Source of the DNA: a virus
DNA length: 41,514 bases
Virus record (IMG/VR): IMGVR_UViG_3300021957_000094
Coordinates: 1 to 41,514 of that record
Reading direction: 5' to 3' (one strand)
Shown here: positions 3,870 to 27,200 of the stretch, piece by piece
Numbering within the stretch: position 1 is the first letter of the stretch
Layout of the letters: each line of letters opens with the position of its first letter
Notes under the pieces: model-generated
Told to the model about the DNA's origin: nothing
The model's input: the letters and a program-made list of their open reading frames with translations, nothing else
Databases searched by the model: none
Translations under genes and position numbers: made by a program

Positions 3870-4823
3870 TCACTTACGCTTTTTTCCTCCCAGTTTTCTT
3901 TTAATATAGTTGGGCTCTGGGATTCCTTTCTTCTTTGCGTCTAATCTACTGGCATTAAATTTATTAATGCCTAATTGTTTCTCTTCTGGGTTTTTAAACT
4001 TCTTCTTCCATCCTGTAGCCCATACTTCTGCCAATGTAGATTTTCCACTAGCGTAATCAGCCATAGACGCAGGTCCTTGCAGAAGGTGAGCAAGTGTTAA
4101 TGCTCTTTGCTCTTCATATGTAAGCTGAGCTGCATCTCTGCTGTCCATAATATTTTGAGGAGGAGTTTCCCCCCAATACCCCATTGTCCTTCTTAAATGT
4201 TTTTGAGCTGTTTCTAAAGTATTGCTACCATCCTTCCCTTCTATCTGAAATGTCCCTCTACCTGTTGGGGTAGGCTCTTGAAGAGCATTAATTGCCATTC
4301 TTTGGTTAGGACCTGATTCATGATATCCCATTGTGTCTGCTGATGCTAAATAAAACTCTGGGGTACTTCCTTTTCTTTTAGCTAACTCTTGAGCCACTCT
4401 ATAGTCTAAAGAGACTCCTCCAGCTTGCATCTTAGAAGGGGTTTCAATTACTGTTCCTCCTTGGCTGCTCATCTTTAAGTTTGAGACTCCAGGAGGTACT
4501 GCTTCATAAGACTTAACCAGATTACCAGCATCATTAAATTGATTTATATCAATTGGGGCACGCATCCCCCTAGTATTAAATTCTTGATTTGGGGGAGTAT
4601 TTGGGAAAGCCATACTAGCTTCTGTGTTCCCAGCTTGGTGTGAGGACCTTAATCCTTGCTGTCTTTCTTCAGGGGTATTTGCAACTTGCATACCCTTCTG
4701 ATTTTCAAACTCTGCAATTAAATCCCTTCCTTGTCTAGCTGCTGCTAAAACATCTACAATAGAGCCTGGGAATTCAGACTGTCTGTGTCGATCAAGAAAT
4801 GCTCTTCTCTCAGGGTTTGTCAT
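3870..4823 (-). CDS. Virion protein with lysozyme-like (murein hydrolase) region
   Basis: This encodes 317 residues. The N-terminal half is low in order. Near residues 110-135 it contains PPGVSNLKMSSQGG followed by ETPSKMQAGG, a pattern that recurs in phage virion proteins of Bacteroidota. From about residue 160 the sequence YHESGPNQRM, then GRGTFQIEGKDG, then a helix-rich segment with EEQRALTLAHLL resembles lysozyme or transglycosylase-like domains, with the Glu of HESG as candidate catalytic residue. It ends in a strongly basic tail. Its start overlaps the portal stop by four bases. I infer a muralytic protein packaged near the portal that helps DNA pass the cell wall. The fold is a reading from weak motifs. 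Confidence 0.68.
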   Translation of the reverse strand: MTNPERRAFLDRHRQSEFPGSIVDVLAAARQGRDLIAEFENQKGMQVANTPEERQQGLRSSHQAGNTEASMAFPNTPPNQEFNTRGMRAPIDINQFNDAGNLVKSYEAVPPGVSNLKMSSQGGTVIETPSKMQAGGVSLDYRVAQELAKRKGSTPEFYLASADTMGYHESGPNQRMAINALQEPTPTGRGTFQIEGKDGSNTLETAQKHLRRTMGYWGETPPQNIMDSRDAAQLTYEEQRALTLAHLLQGPASMADYASGKSTLAEVWATGWKKKFKNPEEKQLGINKFNASRLDAKKKGIPEPNYIKRKLGGKKRK

Positions 4824-9706: not shown

Positions 9707-9968
9707 GTAAGTTTATTTTTTTCCCTCTTTCCCCTACAACTATTTTATCCCATCTACTGTCTGGGCAGTTAGCTGTTTCCCATTTAGATTTTTCCTTAAC
9801 TACACAACCACAAAGACCGCATCTTAGCCCCTCTAAGTGCTCACATGAATTACAAGTTTCTAATCTTTTCTTGTACTGGTGTTCACTTACGTGTGGAGCT
9901 CCTTGCTTTGCATATTCAATTACTTCGTCTTTGAAGTTCTTTAGCATTTCTTTTAGGGTAGGCTTCAT
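9669..9968 (-). CDS. Small cysteine-rich zinc-binding protein
   Basis: This encodes 99 residues. The middle has CNSCEHLEGLRCGLCGC followed by KSKWETANCPDSRW, which gives two or more CxxC pairs suited to a zinc ribbon. This arrangement recurs in small proteins of Bacteroidota phages and resembles the family called DUF6171; I name that family from memory. The protein has no membrane segment. It overlaps the IHF-like gene by 38 bases and the wHTH gene by 4 bases, which places it in the same regulatory or packaging operon. A nucleic acid or protein adaptor role is plausible but unproven. Confidence 0.72.
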   Translation of the reverse strand: MKPTLKEMLKNFKDEVIEYAKQGAPHVSEHQYKKRLETCNSCEHLEGLRCGLCGCVVKEKSKWETANCPDSRWDKIVVGERGKKINLHGRKDNDTNTSK

Positions 9969-10285
9969 GAGTACTCTACTTCAATTAGTATTTTATTTGA
10001 GATTTTCAACAGAGGAGCTAATATATAGCCTGCTGTATCTTTAGACTTTATTATCGCACCCTTATCCTTTAGACGTTTTACATAGTTGTTTAGGGTGTGG
10101 TAATCTTTTATTCCTAAATCCTTTGCTACTGACTTTTTAGTACTTGTAGAACATATGTTATCAATGTCCCCAATATCTATAAGTTTAGAAAGTATCTGCA
10201 GTTCTTTGTCTGTTAGTTCTAGTATTCCATTGAATACCTGCAAATACTTAAATGTAGTATCTGCTTTAATGTTAATCTTACGCAT
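9965..10285 (-). CDS. Winged helix-turn-helix DNA-binding protein
   Basis: This encodes 106 residues. The segment ELTDKELQILSKLIDIGD, then KSVAKDLGIKDYHTLNNY, then VKRLKDKGAIIKSKD (together about residues 22-85) follows the pattern of a winged helix: a helical support, a recognition helix in a DLGIKDYHTLNNY turn, and a wing. Such proteins act as phage transcription regulators. It overlaps the downstream zinc-protein gene by four bases and the upstream small helical gene by eight. The target is unknown, but the repeated late-type TATATTTG promoters without -33 boxes would be reasonable sites for an accessory regulator. Confidence 0.68.
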   Translation of the reverse strand: MRKINIKADTTFKYLQVFNGILELTDKELQILSKLIDIGDIDNICSTSTKKSVAKDLGIKDYHTLNNYVKRLKDKGAIIKSKDTAGYILAPLLKISNKILIEVEYS

Positions 10286-10820: not shown

Positions 10821-11234
10821 TTATATTATATCCTTAAATTTTTCAGAGACTTTAAAGCTAGGACAAGCTTTTGTGGAGAATTCATTATGCCCATGAATAG
10901 TCAATTCTTCATCAGCTACGACTCTTAAAGAAAATATAAGTTCTCTCATTGCCTCTTCTTGGCATTCGTATAGGGTGTCTTTTGGGTTATGTTCTTCGTC
11001 TGATCCTCCTATATAACATATTCCAATAGAGTCTTTATTTTGTCCTTTAGAGTGAGCCCCCACTTTGTCTATTGTTCTCCCAGATTCTATCTCCCCATTT
11101 AAGCGTATTACGTAATGATAGCCAATATCTTTCCAGCCTTTAGCTGTGTGCCATCTACGAATTTCTTCCGCCCCAATATCCATAGAAGTGGGGGTTGCAG
11201 AGCAGTGTATTATAATACGCTTAATATCTCTCAT
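10821..11234 (-). CDS. N-acetylmuramoyl-L-alanine amidase (endolysin, T7 lysozyme type)
   Basis: This encodes 137 residues that make up a complete Amidase_2 domain and nothing else. It should cut the bond between muramic acid and the stem peptide of peptidoglycan. Zinc ligands are readable as H10 (IIIHCSAT), H116 (IHGHNEF) and C124 (KACP). K122 and Y41 (GYHYVI) sit where T7 lysozyme has its catalytic Lys and Tyr. There is no signal peptide, so release to the wall would need the holin encoded three genes upstream. It overlaps a 43-residue basic gene by four bases. T7 lysozyme also inhibits RNA polymerase, but nothing here shows that activity. Confidence 0.92.
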   Translation of the reverse strand: MRDIKRIIIHCSATPTSMDIGAEEIRRWHTAKGWKDIGYHYVIRLNGEIESGRTIDKVGAHSKGQNKDSIGICYIGGSDEEHNPKDTLYECQEEAMRELIFSLRVVADEELTIHGHNEFSTKACPSFKVSEKFKDII

Positions 11235-23001: not shown

Positions 23002-23029
23002 TTCATCACAGACCCCTACTATACATCGG
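23002..23029 (+). repeat. 28-base direct repeat, copy A (upstream of small ORF)
   Basis: This 28-base stretch begins TTCATCACAGACC and ends CATCGG. It matches 24 of 28 bases with copy B at 23421-23448; all four differences are transitions. It ends 38 bases before the ATG of the first rightward gene. Both copies could be translated to FIxDPYYxS, but they lie upstream of the better start codons, so a shared control element is more likely. Confidence 0.68.
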
Positions 23030-23396: not shown

Positions 23397-23430
23397 ACAG
23401 TCGTTCATCATAGACAGTCGTTCATCATAG
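23397..23430 (+). repeat. Tandem duplication of a 17-base unit
   Basis: ACAGTCGTTCATCATAG occurs twice in perfect tandem, at 23397-23413 and 23414-23430. The second unit runs into direct-repeat copy B, which begins at 23421. A further TTCATCATA occurs at 23354. The 227 bases between terminator and next ATG (23314-23540) hold no other gene that I can support. A repeated protein-binding site upstream of the 52-residue ORF is the simplest reading. Confidence 0.75.
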
Positions 23431-23448
23431 ACCCTTACTACGCATCGG
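23421..23448 (+). repeat. 28-base direct repeat, copy B
   Basis: This is the partner of the element at 23002-23029, with 24 of 28 identical positions. It ends 92 bases before the ATG of the 52-residue ORF. The two copies lie 419 bases apart and both precede small rightward genes, as expected for a shared operator or promoter module, or for a partial duplication of an ancestral gene start. Confidence 0.68.
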
Positions 23449-23540: not shown

Positions 23541-23699
23541 ATGTCTAACAAAGAAGAACGAAAACCAGAGTTTAGATACAACGGACAATATGTTATGGAC
23601 TACACAAAGAACAACGTAGTAGGAGATACTGCATGGGACTGTGACTATGGATATTTGAAATGGGATGGAACTAAATGGAAACAGTATAATCCAAAGTAA
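23541..23699 (+). CDS. Small aromatic-rich protein, 52 residues
   Basis: The ATG at 23541 opens MSNKEERKPEFRYNGQYV and continues with DTAWDCDYGYLKWDGTKWKQYNPK. The high Trp/Tyr content and the repeated YxxWDGTKW-like strand suggest a tiny beta-sheet protein. A longer frame begins at an ATG at 23457, but its extra N-terminal part is low in coding character and overlaps the repeat region, so the later start is preferred. It lies between repeat copy B and a candidate structured RNA. Function unknown. Confidence 0.6.
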   Translation: MSNKEERKPEFRYNGQYVMDYTKNNVVGDTAWDCDYGYLKWDGTKWKQYNPK

Positions 23700-23713
23700 A
23701 CTACTTATTGAGT

Positions 23714-23901
23714 TGATAACACAGCGTGGCCTGAGTGGGTCAGTTAAGTACACGCAAGAATCAGAGGCTAGGAGTATCCCTAGGATACATAAAACAGCAG
23801 ACCGCTAAAAAGGTTTGTGCTAGAGTAAGGCTGAAATCTTACTTTCCTCTGTGTATGCTCTCGAGAACTACACGAAATCTGATTTGATAGCTGTGTTATC
23901 A
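23714..23901 (+). ncRNA. Candidate 188-base structured RNA closed by a 12-bp stem
   Basis: The ends pair perfectly: TGATAACACAGC 23714-23725 with GCTGTGTTATCA 23890-23901. Inside are several local hairpins. GCGTG 23724-23728 pairs with CACGC 23751-23755 (sharing two bases with the closing stem) and encloses CTGA/TCAG. CTAGG 23768-23772 pairs with CCTAG 23779-23783, competing with GTATCC/GGATAC 23774-23788. AGTAAG 23824-23829 pairs with CTTACT 23838-23843. GTGTA 23851-23855 pairs with TACAC 23869-23873. A short T-run (ATTTTT) follows the closing stem. No good protein frame fills the gap 23700-23938. I recognise no known RNA family. The plus strand is preferred because of the trailing T-run. 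Confidence 0.55.
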
Positions 23902-23938
23902 TTTTTAAACCTTTTAAACCTAGTAACATATAATCAAC

Positions 23939-24067
23939 ATGAAAGAAAGATTATTCCTCCGAGCATTCCTCATTATTATTACCTGTACACTCCTTATCTA
24001 CTGCACTTCTTGCTCTTCAACAAGTCACACAACTCAATACAAGTCATCATGCCCAGCTTACAACTAA
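23939..24067 (+). CDS. Tiny lipoprotein, 42 residues
   Basis: The ATG at 23939 starts MKERLFLRAFLIIITCTLLI, a basic N-terminus and hydrophobic core, followed by YCTSCSSTSH, in which a Cys could be the lipidated residue of a type II signal peptide. The rest is a short polar tail ending SSCPAYN. Tiny lipoproteins with such tails recur in Bacteroidota phages, as I remember them. A superinfection-exclusion or membrane role is possible. The ORF overlaps the next gene by 19 bases. It is the first gene after the 188-base structured element, whose 3' end is 37 bases upstream of this ATG. Confidence 0.7.
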   Translation: MKERLFLRAFLIIITCTLLIYCTSCSSTSHTTQYKSSCPAYN

Positions 24068-24418: not shown

Positions 24419-25015
24419 ATGGAAAATACATTAAACACAGGCACCTTGGAAGCCTTAATTCCAGGAGAAACGCTAGTTGTCCACGCGCGTAAGGTTAAGG
24501 GTGGCAAAGTTCAAATCGAGTTTGCAGAAAAACTTGCAACAGAGGAGCGTCCTCAAAGTTTATTGAGTGTATTCAATAGATCAGATGACCGATTCTCACA
24601 AGCAGGTGGAGCAAGACGCACTTGGATGACTTCAGAACCTTCTGATGCATCAGAGCTCTTGAATGTAGACTTGGTTAATGCTGAGTACAAAACCGTAACA
24701 ATTAACGGTAAGGTTCAAGAGATTTTCCCTTTGAACATTCTCAACCCAACACTTGATGGGAAGCGAATGCGCATTCAGGTTAATGAGACTACTCTCCCAA
24801 CCACATGGCAGTCAGATAACCTTGAGACTACTGCTAAGCGCAAGGGAGCTGAAGGTGAGTTTATTACTTACAAAGGACAATACATCTTCTCTAACACAGA
24901 TGTAGTTTTGGGGGAACCAAAACACACGTTCTTGAAGGCTGACGAAGTAGCCTCCGAATCTTTGTCTGGTATTTATGCCAACGTAGACATCGAGACAGGA
25001 GAGATTGCTTCCTAA
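24419..25015 (+). CDS. Unknown conserved-type early protein, possibly highly expressed
   Basis: This encodes 198 residues, starting MENTLNTGTLEALIPGETL. It reads as a beta-rich soluble protein: LVVHARKVKGGKVQIEFAEK, then RRTWMTSEPSDASELL, YKTVTINGKVQEIFPLNIL and TYKGQYIFSNTDVVLGEP. The strand-rich N-terminus and its place beside replication genes could fit a nucleic acid-binding (OB-like) protein, but no aromatic DNA-binding signature is clear. Codons are GC-richer than in the polymerase gene, similar to the capsid gene, which suggests abundance. It is bounded by terminator-like hairpins on both sides, forming a single-gene unit. Function not assigned. Confidence 0.75.
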   Translation: MENTLNTGTLEALIPGETLVVHARKVKGGKVQIEFAEKLATEERPQSLLSVFNRSDDRFSQAGGARRTWMTSEPSDASELLNVDLVNAEYKTVTINGKVQEIFPLNILNPTLDGKRMRIQVNETTLPTTWQSDNLETTAKRKGAEGEFITYKGQYIFSNTDVVLGEPKHTFLKADEVASESLSGIYANVDIETGEIAS

Positions 25016-25117: not shown

Positions 25118-25360
25118 ATGGGTAAAATGAAAATGGTTTTCTTACTTGCACAGGAATCAAACTCTGTAAGAAGAATTAAGAAATTAATCTCAGAGGCTGA
25201 AGCAGAGAAACTTAGATATTGTGTTTTTGAGGGTGAATTTCTCACACTCGAACAGGCAAAATCTATAGTTAAACTGATCACTATAGAGAGAAAAAGACAA
25301 TACAATTTAAATGATACATTACATCTCGAACCAGACGAGCATACAATCGAACAGGATTAA
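25118..25360 (+). CDS. Small helical protein upstream of DNA polymerase
   Basis: This encodes 80 residues, beginning MGKMKMVFLLAQESNSVRRI and continuing with a charged helix KKLISEAEAEKLRYCVFEGE, then LTLEQAKSIVKLITIERKRQY and an acidic tail. No membrane segment or recognised motif. A second ATG at 25127 is possible. Its end overlaps the polymerase frame by 50 bases, which couples the two. It may be a small polymerase accessory, but only position suggests this. Confidence 0.62.
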   Translation: MGKMKMVFLLAQESNSVRRIKKLISEAEAEKLRYCVFEGEFLTLEQAKSIVKLITIERKRQYNLNDTLHLEPDEHTIEQD

Positions 25361-27200
25361 ACTATCAACAATAGACGATGCTGTTCAATATTGTAAAAGC
25401 AAAACAGTACTTGGGGTAGACACTGAGACTGAAGGCTTTGACTTTACGTGTAAGAAGATGATTATGTTTCAGATTGGGGACAACGAACAACAGTTCGTAA
25501 TTGATACAAGATGTGTATCAATTGAACCTCTTCGAGAAATACTCGAGTCAGAGGATATAATTAAAATCTTTCATAATGCAAAGTTCGATTACAAATTTAT
25601 TAAACGATGGGGAAATATATGTTGCAAAAACATTTACGATACCTTTCTTACAGAAAAGGTTCTACATTGTGGGAAACAAGATTACGGTTTCTCACTTGCA
25701 AAAGTCTGTAAACGTTACCTCAATGTCGATTTGGACAAAGAGGAAAGGAACAAGTTCATCAACTTGCAGGGTCTCCCCTACACGCACAATCAAATTGTTT
25801 ATGGGGCTAAAGACGTTACATTTCTCATACAGATTAGAGAGAAACAAATACCGTTACTTGATCTACACAAATTGGTTCAAGTCTCCGAATTGGAGAACAG
25901 AGTTGTTAGAGTCTTTTCAGAAATTGAATACGAAGGACTAAATATTAACAAGGATAAGTGGGTAGAGATGGCTAACAAAAATCAAGAGTTAGCTGAAAAC
26001 ATGCAAATAACATTGGATAGTAGTGTAGCTGAAAACAATAAGCTTAAACAATTCATTCAACCTGTGCAGCAGGATTTGTTTGCCCCAACATTGAGGAAGA
26101 CTAATATTAATTGGAGTTCCCCTAAGCAAGTCTTAGAGGTATTTCAAACTCTTATCCCCAAGCTAGAAGATGTAAACGGGAAGAACCTATATAAGCATAA
26201 GTATAAGTTCTCAATAATAAAGGAGTATATCAGGTACAAAGAACTAACCAAGCTATCTAATGCTTATGGGAGTAAGTTCTTTAAGTATGTTAACTCTGAT
26301 AACAAAGTTCATACAAACTTTCAGCAGATTTTAGACACTGGGAGAGTTAGCTCTTCGTCCCCGAACATGCAACAAATCCCAAGTGATAATACATTTAGGA
26401 ATTGTTTTTATGCTCCTGAAGACTGGGTATTCGTTAGCTCTGACTATTCAAGTCAAGAGTTAAATGTTATTGCTTATGGATCAAACGACCCTGTATTCTT
26501 ACGAGCACTTGAAAACGGCGAAGATCTGCACTCTGTTTGCGCGGAACTTGTATTTCAAAATGAATGGATAGATAACGCTGAGAGCGGTTGTGTTTACATC
26601 AGTCATAAGCAGAAATGTAGTTGCCCCAAACATAAGGAGCTTAGGACTAAAGTTAAGACAATTAATTTTGGATTAGCATATGGGATGGGACCAAATAAAC
26701 TCAGCGATACGTTACAGATTTCTTTACAAGAGGCTAAAGACCTTATAAAGAAATACTTTACGGCATTCCCTTCAATCGAAAGCTTTCTTAATGATCTTGG
26801 GGAGAAGGGTAAACGTACAGGAAGTATACGCACTTTCCCCCCGTTTAATAGGGTTAGATGGTTTGAAAACTGGACTGCTAAGATGTATAATAACCGAGAT
26901 AACTTTATGGAGCTTGGGAGTATTGAAAGAGCTTCAAAGAATACCCCAATTCAAGGTTCAAGTGCTGATATGACTAAGCTTGCACTATACTATATCTATA
27001 ATGAGATAGAGAAAAACTATAGTGACACAGTTAAGATAGTCATGACTGTACATGATCAGATTGATACTATATGTAAGCAAGAAATTGCTGAAGAATGGAA
27101 AGAAAGAATGACAGAGCTAATGGAGAAGGCTGCTAACGTAATCATCCCCAATAAACTGCTCAAAGCTGACACTAATATTTCAAAAACATGGGAAAAATAG
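25311..27200 (+). CDS. polA: DNA polymerase, family A, with 3'-5' proofreading domain
   Basis: This encodes 629 residues, a replicative phage-type Pol I without a 5' nuclease domain (that enzyme is encoded separately at 39138). Proofreading motifs: Exo I VDTETEG (D37, E39), Exo II HNAKFD (D93), Exo III YGAKD (D168). Polymerase motifs: TGRVSSSSPNMQQIP (343-357), motif A SSDYSSQEL (D378), motif B R445-x3-K449-x3-FGLAYG, and motif C TVHDQID (H581, D582). Between motifs A and B there is an insert with C427, C436, C438 and H441 that could bind zinc. The N-terminus overlaps the previous gene by 50 bases, so the exact start is uncertain. It should copy the phage genome with the DnaB and primase downstream. 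Confidence 0.95.
   Translation: MIHYISNQTSIQSNRIKLSTIDDAVQYCKSKTVLGVDTETEGFDFTCKKMIMFQIGDNEQQFVIDTRCVSIEPLREILESEDIIKIFHNAKFDYKFIKRWGNICCKNIYDTFLTEKVLHCGKQDYGFSLAKVCKRYLNVDLDKEERNKFINLQGLPYTHNQIVYGAKDVTFLIQIREKQIPLLDLHKLVQVSELENRVVRVFSEIEYEGLNINKDKWVEMANKNQELAENMQITLDSSVAENNKLKQFIQPVQQDLFAPTLRKTNINWSSPKQVLEVFQTLIPKLEDVNGKNLYKHKYKFSIIKEYIRYKELTKLSNAYGSKFFKYVNSDNKVHTNFQQILDTGRVSSSSPNMQQIPSDNTFRNCFYAPEDWVFVSSDYSSQELNVIAYGSNDPVFLRALENGEDLHSVCAELVFQNEWIDNAESGCVYISHKQKCSCPKHKELRTKVKTINFGLAYGMGPNKLSDTLQISLQEAKDLIKKYFTAFPSIESFLNDLGEKGKRTGSIRTFPPFNRVRWFENWTAKMYNNRDNFMELGSIERASKNTPIQGSSADMTKLALYYIYNEIEKNYSDTVKIVMTVHDQIDTICKQEIAEEWKERMTELMEKAANVIIPNKLLKADTNISKTWEK

Follow-up and report, generated by a model that had tools for sequence, protein, structure and literature searches.

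What is the element that fills the gap between two small genes in the virus genome analysed here, and does it act as DNA, as part of an mRNA or as an RNA in its own right? The window, by which we mean the whole stretch of DNA that was analysed, is a 41.5-kb virus record from IMG/VR. At positions 23714-23901 of this window a perfect 12-bp closing stem surrounds an interior of 164 bases. The arms of the stem are the exact inverted repeats TGATAACACAGC (23714-23725) and GCTGTGTTATCA (23890-23901), and TTTTT follows directly 3' of it, at 23902-23906, which confirms the arms, their spacing and the T-run described in an earlier note on this DNA. Dinucleotide shuffling of the gap (23700-23938) was repeated 3000 times, and a perfect inverted repeat of 12 bp whose loop does not exceed 200 bases arose in 4 of the shuffled sequences; when the whole window was shuffled, a mean of 0.72 such repeats was obtained vs 4 observed. 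The chance expectations initially given, 0.002 for the gap and 0.5 for the window, were thus about right. The window contains three more perfect inverted repeats whose stems are 12 bp or longer and whose loops are shorter than 200 bases, at 11099/11213, 30448/30538 and 39174/39260. The minimum free energy fold of the 188-nt RNA has a value of -57.7 kcal/mol (z = -3.4), and the complementary strand folds too (z = -3.2). Since the two z values are similar, folding energy alone does not decide between the strands, and in our judgement the better-than-shuffled folding of both strands is mostly due to the palindromic ends.

Relatives were sought in IMG/VR by protein neighbour and by DNA pattern. 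Homologous phage intergenic regions, the collection of which had been recommended at the outset, were found in the form of eight further complete relatives (two of them, L013 and L124, nearly identical) and one partial member, L186, which is cut off by the end of its contig. The complete members span 126-199 nt, with 188 nt in the window, 177 in L007, 138 in L124 and in L013/L015, 199 in L027, 131 in L087, 126 in L096, 150 in L110 and 164 in the distant member L356. The sample therefore consists of nine complete copies including the window, two of which are nearly identical and most of which are closely related. Reduced forms are also present: L011/L165 carry a 53-nt form in which the same arms and TTTTTAAA enclose an unrelated 29-nt interior, so that only a P1 hairpin and T-run are left, and L016 has the right arm (P1') alone, at the same site. 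A search of 41 records with model R1 (L356 not among them) revealed at most one copy per record, and the element was absent from most related records. Because its core is lost in L011/L165 and L016, and because most related records lack it, the RNA seems dispensable.

Beyond these loci, large collections were scanned by exact pattern only. The right-arm pattern gave many matches, chance-like in appearance, and the conserved-strand pattern, run over 84,980 genomes, gave chance-like matches together with a repeated Nostoc element that we judge unrelated to the phage RNA. The latter is a MITE-like repeat of about 110 bases, present in many copies (L259, L260, L263, L268, L270, L281, L283 and others), whose ends ATAGCGTTTCT.../AGGAAAGGCTATA are inverted and whose interior contains AGTGAAGTACAAGCAAGA. 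A blastn search of 50,697 phage records detected no relative of the window, L096, L013 or L356 copies; the L013 and L356 queries returned weak short matches only, located 3' of the element. When the window and eight related loci were compared with Rfam release 15, as the earlier note had advised, no family matched the element at the gathering threshold and none meaningfully up to E = 5, which is consistent with the element being new.

The complete members share a predicted three-way junction that consists, in order, of P1, P2, an unpaired strand, P3 (which bears an apical domain that varies), GAUA and P1'. In the window, all parts lie on the plus strand. The 5' arm of the closing stem P1 (23714-23725) is the exact complement of P1' (23890-23901) and is unchanged in eight members. 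The arms of P2 (23727-23732 and 23737-23742), taken from the minimum free energy fold, contain pairs that have changed on both sides in relatives. They are followed by the unpaired strand J2/3, GTTAAGTACACGCAA (23743-23757), which is near-invariant in all members, including L356 and L186, and has the 15-nt consensus GUNARGUACAMGCAA. P3 is formed by GAATCAGA (23758-23765), in which three pairs have changed on both sides, and TCTGATTT (23878-23885), whose covariation is seen in the alignment of eight sequences. Between these arms the apical domain (23766-23877) varies from member to member in both length and sequence; it contains the hairpin P4, GTGTATGCTCTCGAGAACTACAC (23851-23873), which is retained despite changed pairs in L007, L013, L124, L027 and L087, as is visible by eye in GCUC/GAGC of L013 vs GUUCU/AGAAC of L027. 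J3/1, the unpaired GATA at 23886-23889, is invariant in all complete members including L356. The T-run at 23902-23906 possibly makes an intrinsic terminator together with P1: TTTTT follows P1' in the window, L124, L027, L087 and L011/L165, and is degenerate in L007, L013 and L110. A terminator scan limited to loops of 3-8 did not list P1 with its T-run.

The apical domain also contains the two competing hairpins, CTAGG/CCTAG and GTATCC/GGATAC, that had been proposed as a possible switch. Both can indeed be traced in the sequences of the window and L027 but in no others, as L007 has lost the stretch by deletion and the remaining members lack it; they are thus not conserved, and a two-hairpin switch was rejected.

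Comparison of the members provides support for the pairing. In an alignment of eight sequences, 97.9% of cells pair vs 91.8% after shuffling and at most 43% in slid controls, although these shuffle counts are not probabilities, since the sequences are few and mostly related. In five pairs both partners have changed (P2 has two of these and P3 three), and P1 is invariant across the same alignment apart from the outermost base of L110. In the case of L356, the closing stem AGAUGUGUGC/GCACACAUCU differs from that of the window on both sides in 6 of 10 pairs and still pairs. These changes were counted by hand, since P1 of L356 came out of register in the MAFFT alignment. Shuffled flanks of the L356 motif would be expected to contain a perfect 10-bp repeat about 0.3% of the time, and L356 appears to be a true member on the joint grounds of its stem, P2, P3, conserved strands and locus. 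The automatic model recovered L356 in part only, and the long P3 inserts of the window, L027 and L356 were beyond the span of model R2. As regards the strand, 12 G-U pairs were counted vs 1 A-C pair across the eight core sequences, which favours the plus strand as the RNA; with model R1 the complete members score 98-151 bits when read on the plus strand, and their opposite strands reach no more than 20.

No conserved reading frame runs through the element. The lengths (126, 131, 138, 150, 164, 177, 188 and 199) differ by numbers not divisible by 3, and indels occur throughout the alignment, which speaks against the conserved protein frame that the earlier note had named as the sign of an error. 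The compensatory changes that it had asked for are present, within a small sample, as five pairs in P2 and P3 and six of ten in P1 of L356. Homologues, compensation in all three stems, the lack of a conserved frame and the lack of an Rfam family together support its suggestion of a new structured non-coding RNA of phages, and from sequence comparison we consider the element a candidate family, i.e., a three-armed RNA conserved in related viruses and without match among described families.

The position of the element is conserved as well. Wherever a contig reaches the replication genes, the element is found at the same locus and in the same orientation, upstream of a gene for a 198-aa protein and of DNA polymerase A; the downstream side is out of view in L110, where the element is at the contig start, and in L186, where it is at the contig end. 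The gene immediately upstream in the window encodes 52 aa (23541-23699, plus strand) and is the same neighbour in L007, L124, L016 and L186, with other genes elsewhere. The 198-aa protein (24419-25015, plus strand) has no Pfam or PHROGs match; a homologue lies 3' of the element in L007, L124, L013, L027, L087 and L096, and this neighbour has diverged to about 50% identity while the joining strands stay conserved. The second locus marker, DNA polymerase family A (25311-27200, plus strand; Pfam PF00476, E = 2.5e-73), has its closest phage records among the crAss-like phages, at about 32% identity, on which ground a host among the Bacteroidota is presumed. The L356 element is located about 1.6 kb upstream of a polymerase 58% identical to that of the window. 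The gene directly 3' of the element is a different matter, as the element is followed by a lipoprotein gene, two other small genes or tRNA-like structures, depending on the member, and a link to the tiny lipoprotein is thus weak. The lipoprotein-like protein of the window (23939-24067) weakly resembles Rz-like spanins (phrog_456, E = 0.0045), and its gene overlaps the next one at 24049.

No promoter-like sequence common to the members was recognised by eye 5' of the element, and for this reason the RNA is probably made within an early transcript. Several smaller features of these loci were noted on the way. The motif ATCAYAGACCCYTACTAYRCATCGG is repeated at 23008-23029 and 23427-23448 of the window, 5' of small plus-strand genes, and is also present in L007 and, in a weaker form, in L096; it may be a candidate phage promoter of the early transcript. 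Another conserved motif that looks non-coding, CCTRAGCATGAAGACAAACTGC, occurs at L005:3702, L013:2279, L032:3648, L087 (minus strand) at about 3960 and, diverged, at L096:10284, and may correspond to a tiny leader frame (MKTNC) or to an RNA element. In L087, a 30-base P1-related hairpin, TGATAACGCAGC/GCTGCGCTATCA, adjoins the element at 4218-4247 and overlaps the end of the upstream gene.

Four members (L013, L087, L096 and L356) have a tRNA-like structure within a few bases of P1', the exact distances depending on the chosen start of the acceptor stem. In L013 (about 2184-2229) and L087 (about 4026-4072, minus strand), an acceptor stem and a T-arm without D or anticodon arm follow P1' after a few bases; in L096 one such structure (9794-9850) ends just 5' of P1 and a longer one (9985-10089) begins a few bases past P1'; in L356 (3771-3813, minus strand) about 4 nt separate P1' from a structure whose acceptor stem is imperfect. 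Several of these non-canonical structures, clustered near the element, consist of acceptor stem and T-arm (GGTTCGATTCC loop) only. With a strict pattern, these loci yield seven non-canonical tRNA-like structures and shuffled sequence yields none; those beside the element were not called by ARAGORN, nor by Rfam at the gathering threshold, and no such structure adjoins the element of the window, L124 or L007. Note also that L096 contains a near-complete but odd tRNA-like structure at 10994-11071, between the 198-aa gene and the polymerase gene, with the acceptor CACCATG...CATGGTG and a large insert on the anticodon side. RNase P prefers substrates made of acceptor and T-arm, and this preference suggests that it may cut beside the element.

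With the structure, conservation, covariation, locus and tRNA-like neighbours described above in hand, we infer transcription, processing, trans action and a partner for this RNA. The reading that we hold to be slightly better than an even bet is that the element specifies a plus-strand structured non-coding RNA, matured from the early transcript of the replication operon and acting in trans. An RNA of about 190 nt in the window, built on the P1/P2/P3 junction with its 15-nt unpaired strand between P2 and P3 and GAUA between P3 and P1, would probably be made within the early transcript of the small genes preceding DNA polymerase A and would then be cut or terminated out of it, with its ends shielded by the long P1. 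Two routes could lead to the 3' end, namely termination at P1 and the T-run (window, L124, L027), or an RNase P cut at the adjacent tRNA-like structure (L013, L087, L096, L356). Once freed, the RNA would act in trans, and the conserved joining strands would serve as its binding surface. Several points count against this reading, i.e., the near-invariance of P1 in close members, the loss of the core in L011/L165 and L016 and its absence from most related records, the lack of a recognised promoter of its own and the lack of a tRNA-like neighbour in the window. An antisense mode of action was also found weaker, because no target appeared in the phage or in rRNA: the best complement elsewhere among the phage's own genes has 5 mismatches in 19, and the longest match to Flavobacterium 16S and 23S rRNA is 7, no better than for shuffled strands.

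Riboswitch, terminator, DNA-level and mobile-element readings were also considered and found weaker than a trans-acting RNA. A cis-acting riboswitch-like sensor or attenuator, which would control downstream genes from within a polycistronic mRNA, would fit an element that sits within a single operon, between its genes, and whose junction resembles those of riboswitch sensors in having conserved unpaired strands. We consider it unlikely, given that the directly downstream gene changes between lipoprotein, other small genes and tRNA-like structures, that the alternative hairpins are unconserved and leave no conserved expression platform, and that no Rfam riboswitch matches; the constant class of downstream gene and the expression platform expected of a riboswitch were not found. 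It is the conservation of the RNA core and of its place, while the downstream gene changes, that favours a free RNA over a cis switch. A further reading is that the element is an intrinsic terminator or RNA-processing site in which P1 and the T-run alone matter. The 53-nt form of L011/L165, with its arms and TTTTTAAA around an unrelated 29-nt interior, and the related short hairpin adjoining the element of L087 agree with a passive interior. Yet the unpaired strand and P2/P3 are conserved and covarying in all complete members, the T-run is degenerate in L007, L013 and L110, and a loop of 164 nt would be unusual for a terminator, which makes this explanation improbable.

The location upstream of DNA polymerase A, the near-invariant P1 arms of close relatives and the good folding of both strands could all be accounted for by a replication origin or a protein-binding palindrome near the replication genes. 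However, P1 is replaced as a pair in L356, the G-U pairs point to one of the two strands and the conserved strand forms no pairs, and we give such a DNA-level role only a slim chance. Least probable is a non-autonomous mobile element: terminal inverted repeats are present, the window and L027 copies are 88% identical within unrelated flanks and the site in L016 is almost empty, but each record has at most one copy, always at one locus, no target-site duplication was seen and L016 retains one arm rather than offering a clean empty site. A MITE-type element was rejected on account of the single locus, the single copy per record and the missing target duplication.

Structured phage RNAs with an assigned function are few, and this element is compact, with a clear conserved core and a fixed place by the replication genes, which makes it amenable to probing and deletion and usable as bait; its tRNA-like neighbours suggest a processing route that is testable in vitro. 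We also put forward, tentatively and as the less probable case, a new composite class of phage RNA, in which the three-way-junction RNA with its conserved unpaired strand is interspersed with tRNA-like structures that recruit RNase P and whose D and anticodon arms are reduced or absent; a clade of uncultured phages would keep this RNA at a single locus, upstream of its replication genes.

Known systems resemble the element in different respects. Sensors of the purine and TPP riboswitch type share with it a P1-P2-P3 junction and conserved unpaired joining strands; they differ in that the element has no Rfam riboswitch match, constant downstream gene or conserved expression platform. P4 CI RNA and P1 C4 RNA are small antisense regulators of phages, about 70-80 nt long, which are believed to come from an early transcript that is cut beside a tRNA-like structure. 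The likeness lies in this mode of release and is one of working only, since those RNAs are antisense, whereas the element has no antisense target found and no Rfam match. Stable RNAs 1 and 2 of T4 (bands C and D), encoded in the T4 tRNA cluster, are about 120-140 nt long and of unknown function. They can be likened to the element, by description only, as stable phage RNAs beside tRNA genes, although the tRNA genes here are about 4 kb from the element. Nearest in kind are GOLLD and ROOL, structured non-coding RNAs of phages and prophages that also have no assigned function, although their Rfam models found no match in the window or its relatives, and the element does not reach their length of several hundred nt. 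Both are often encoded near tRNA genes, and GOLLD can carry tRNAs in its linker (PMC12286853). They are much larger RNAs, with pseudoknots and oligomer contacts, whereas the element described here is a predicted three-way junction of 126-199 nt.
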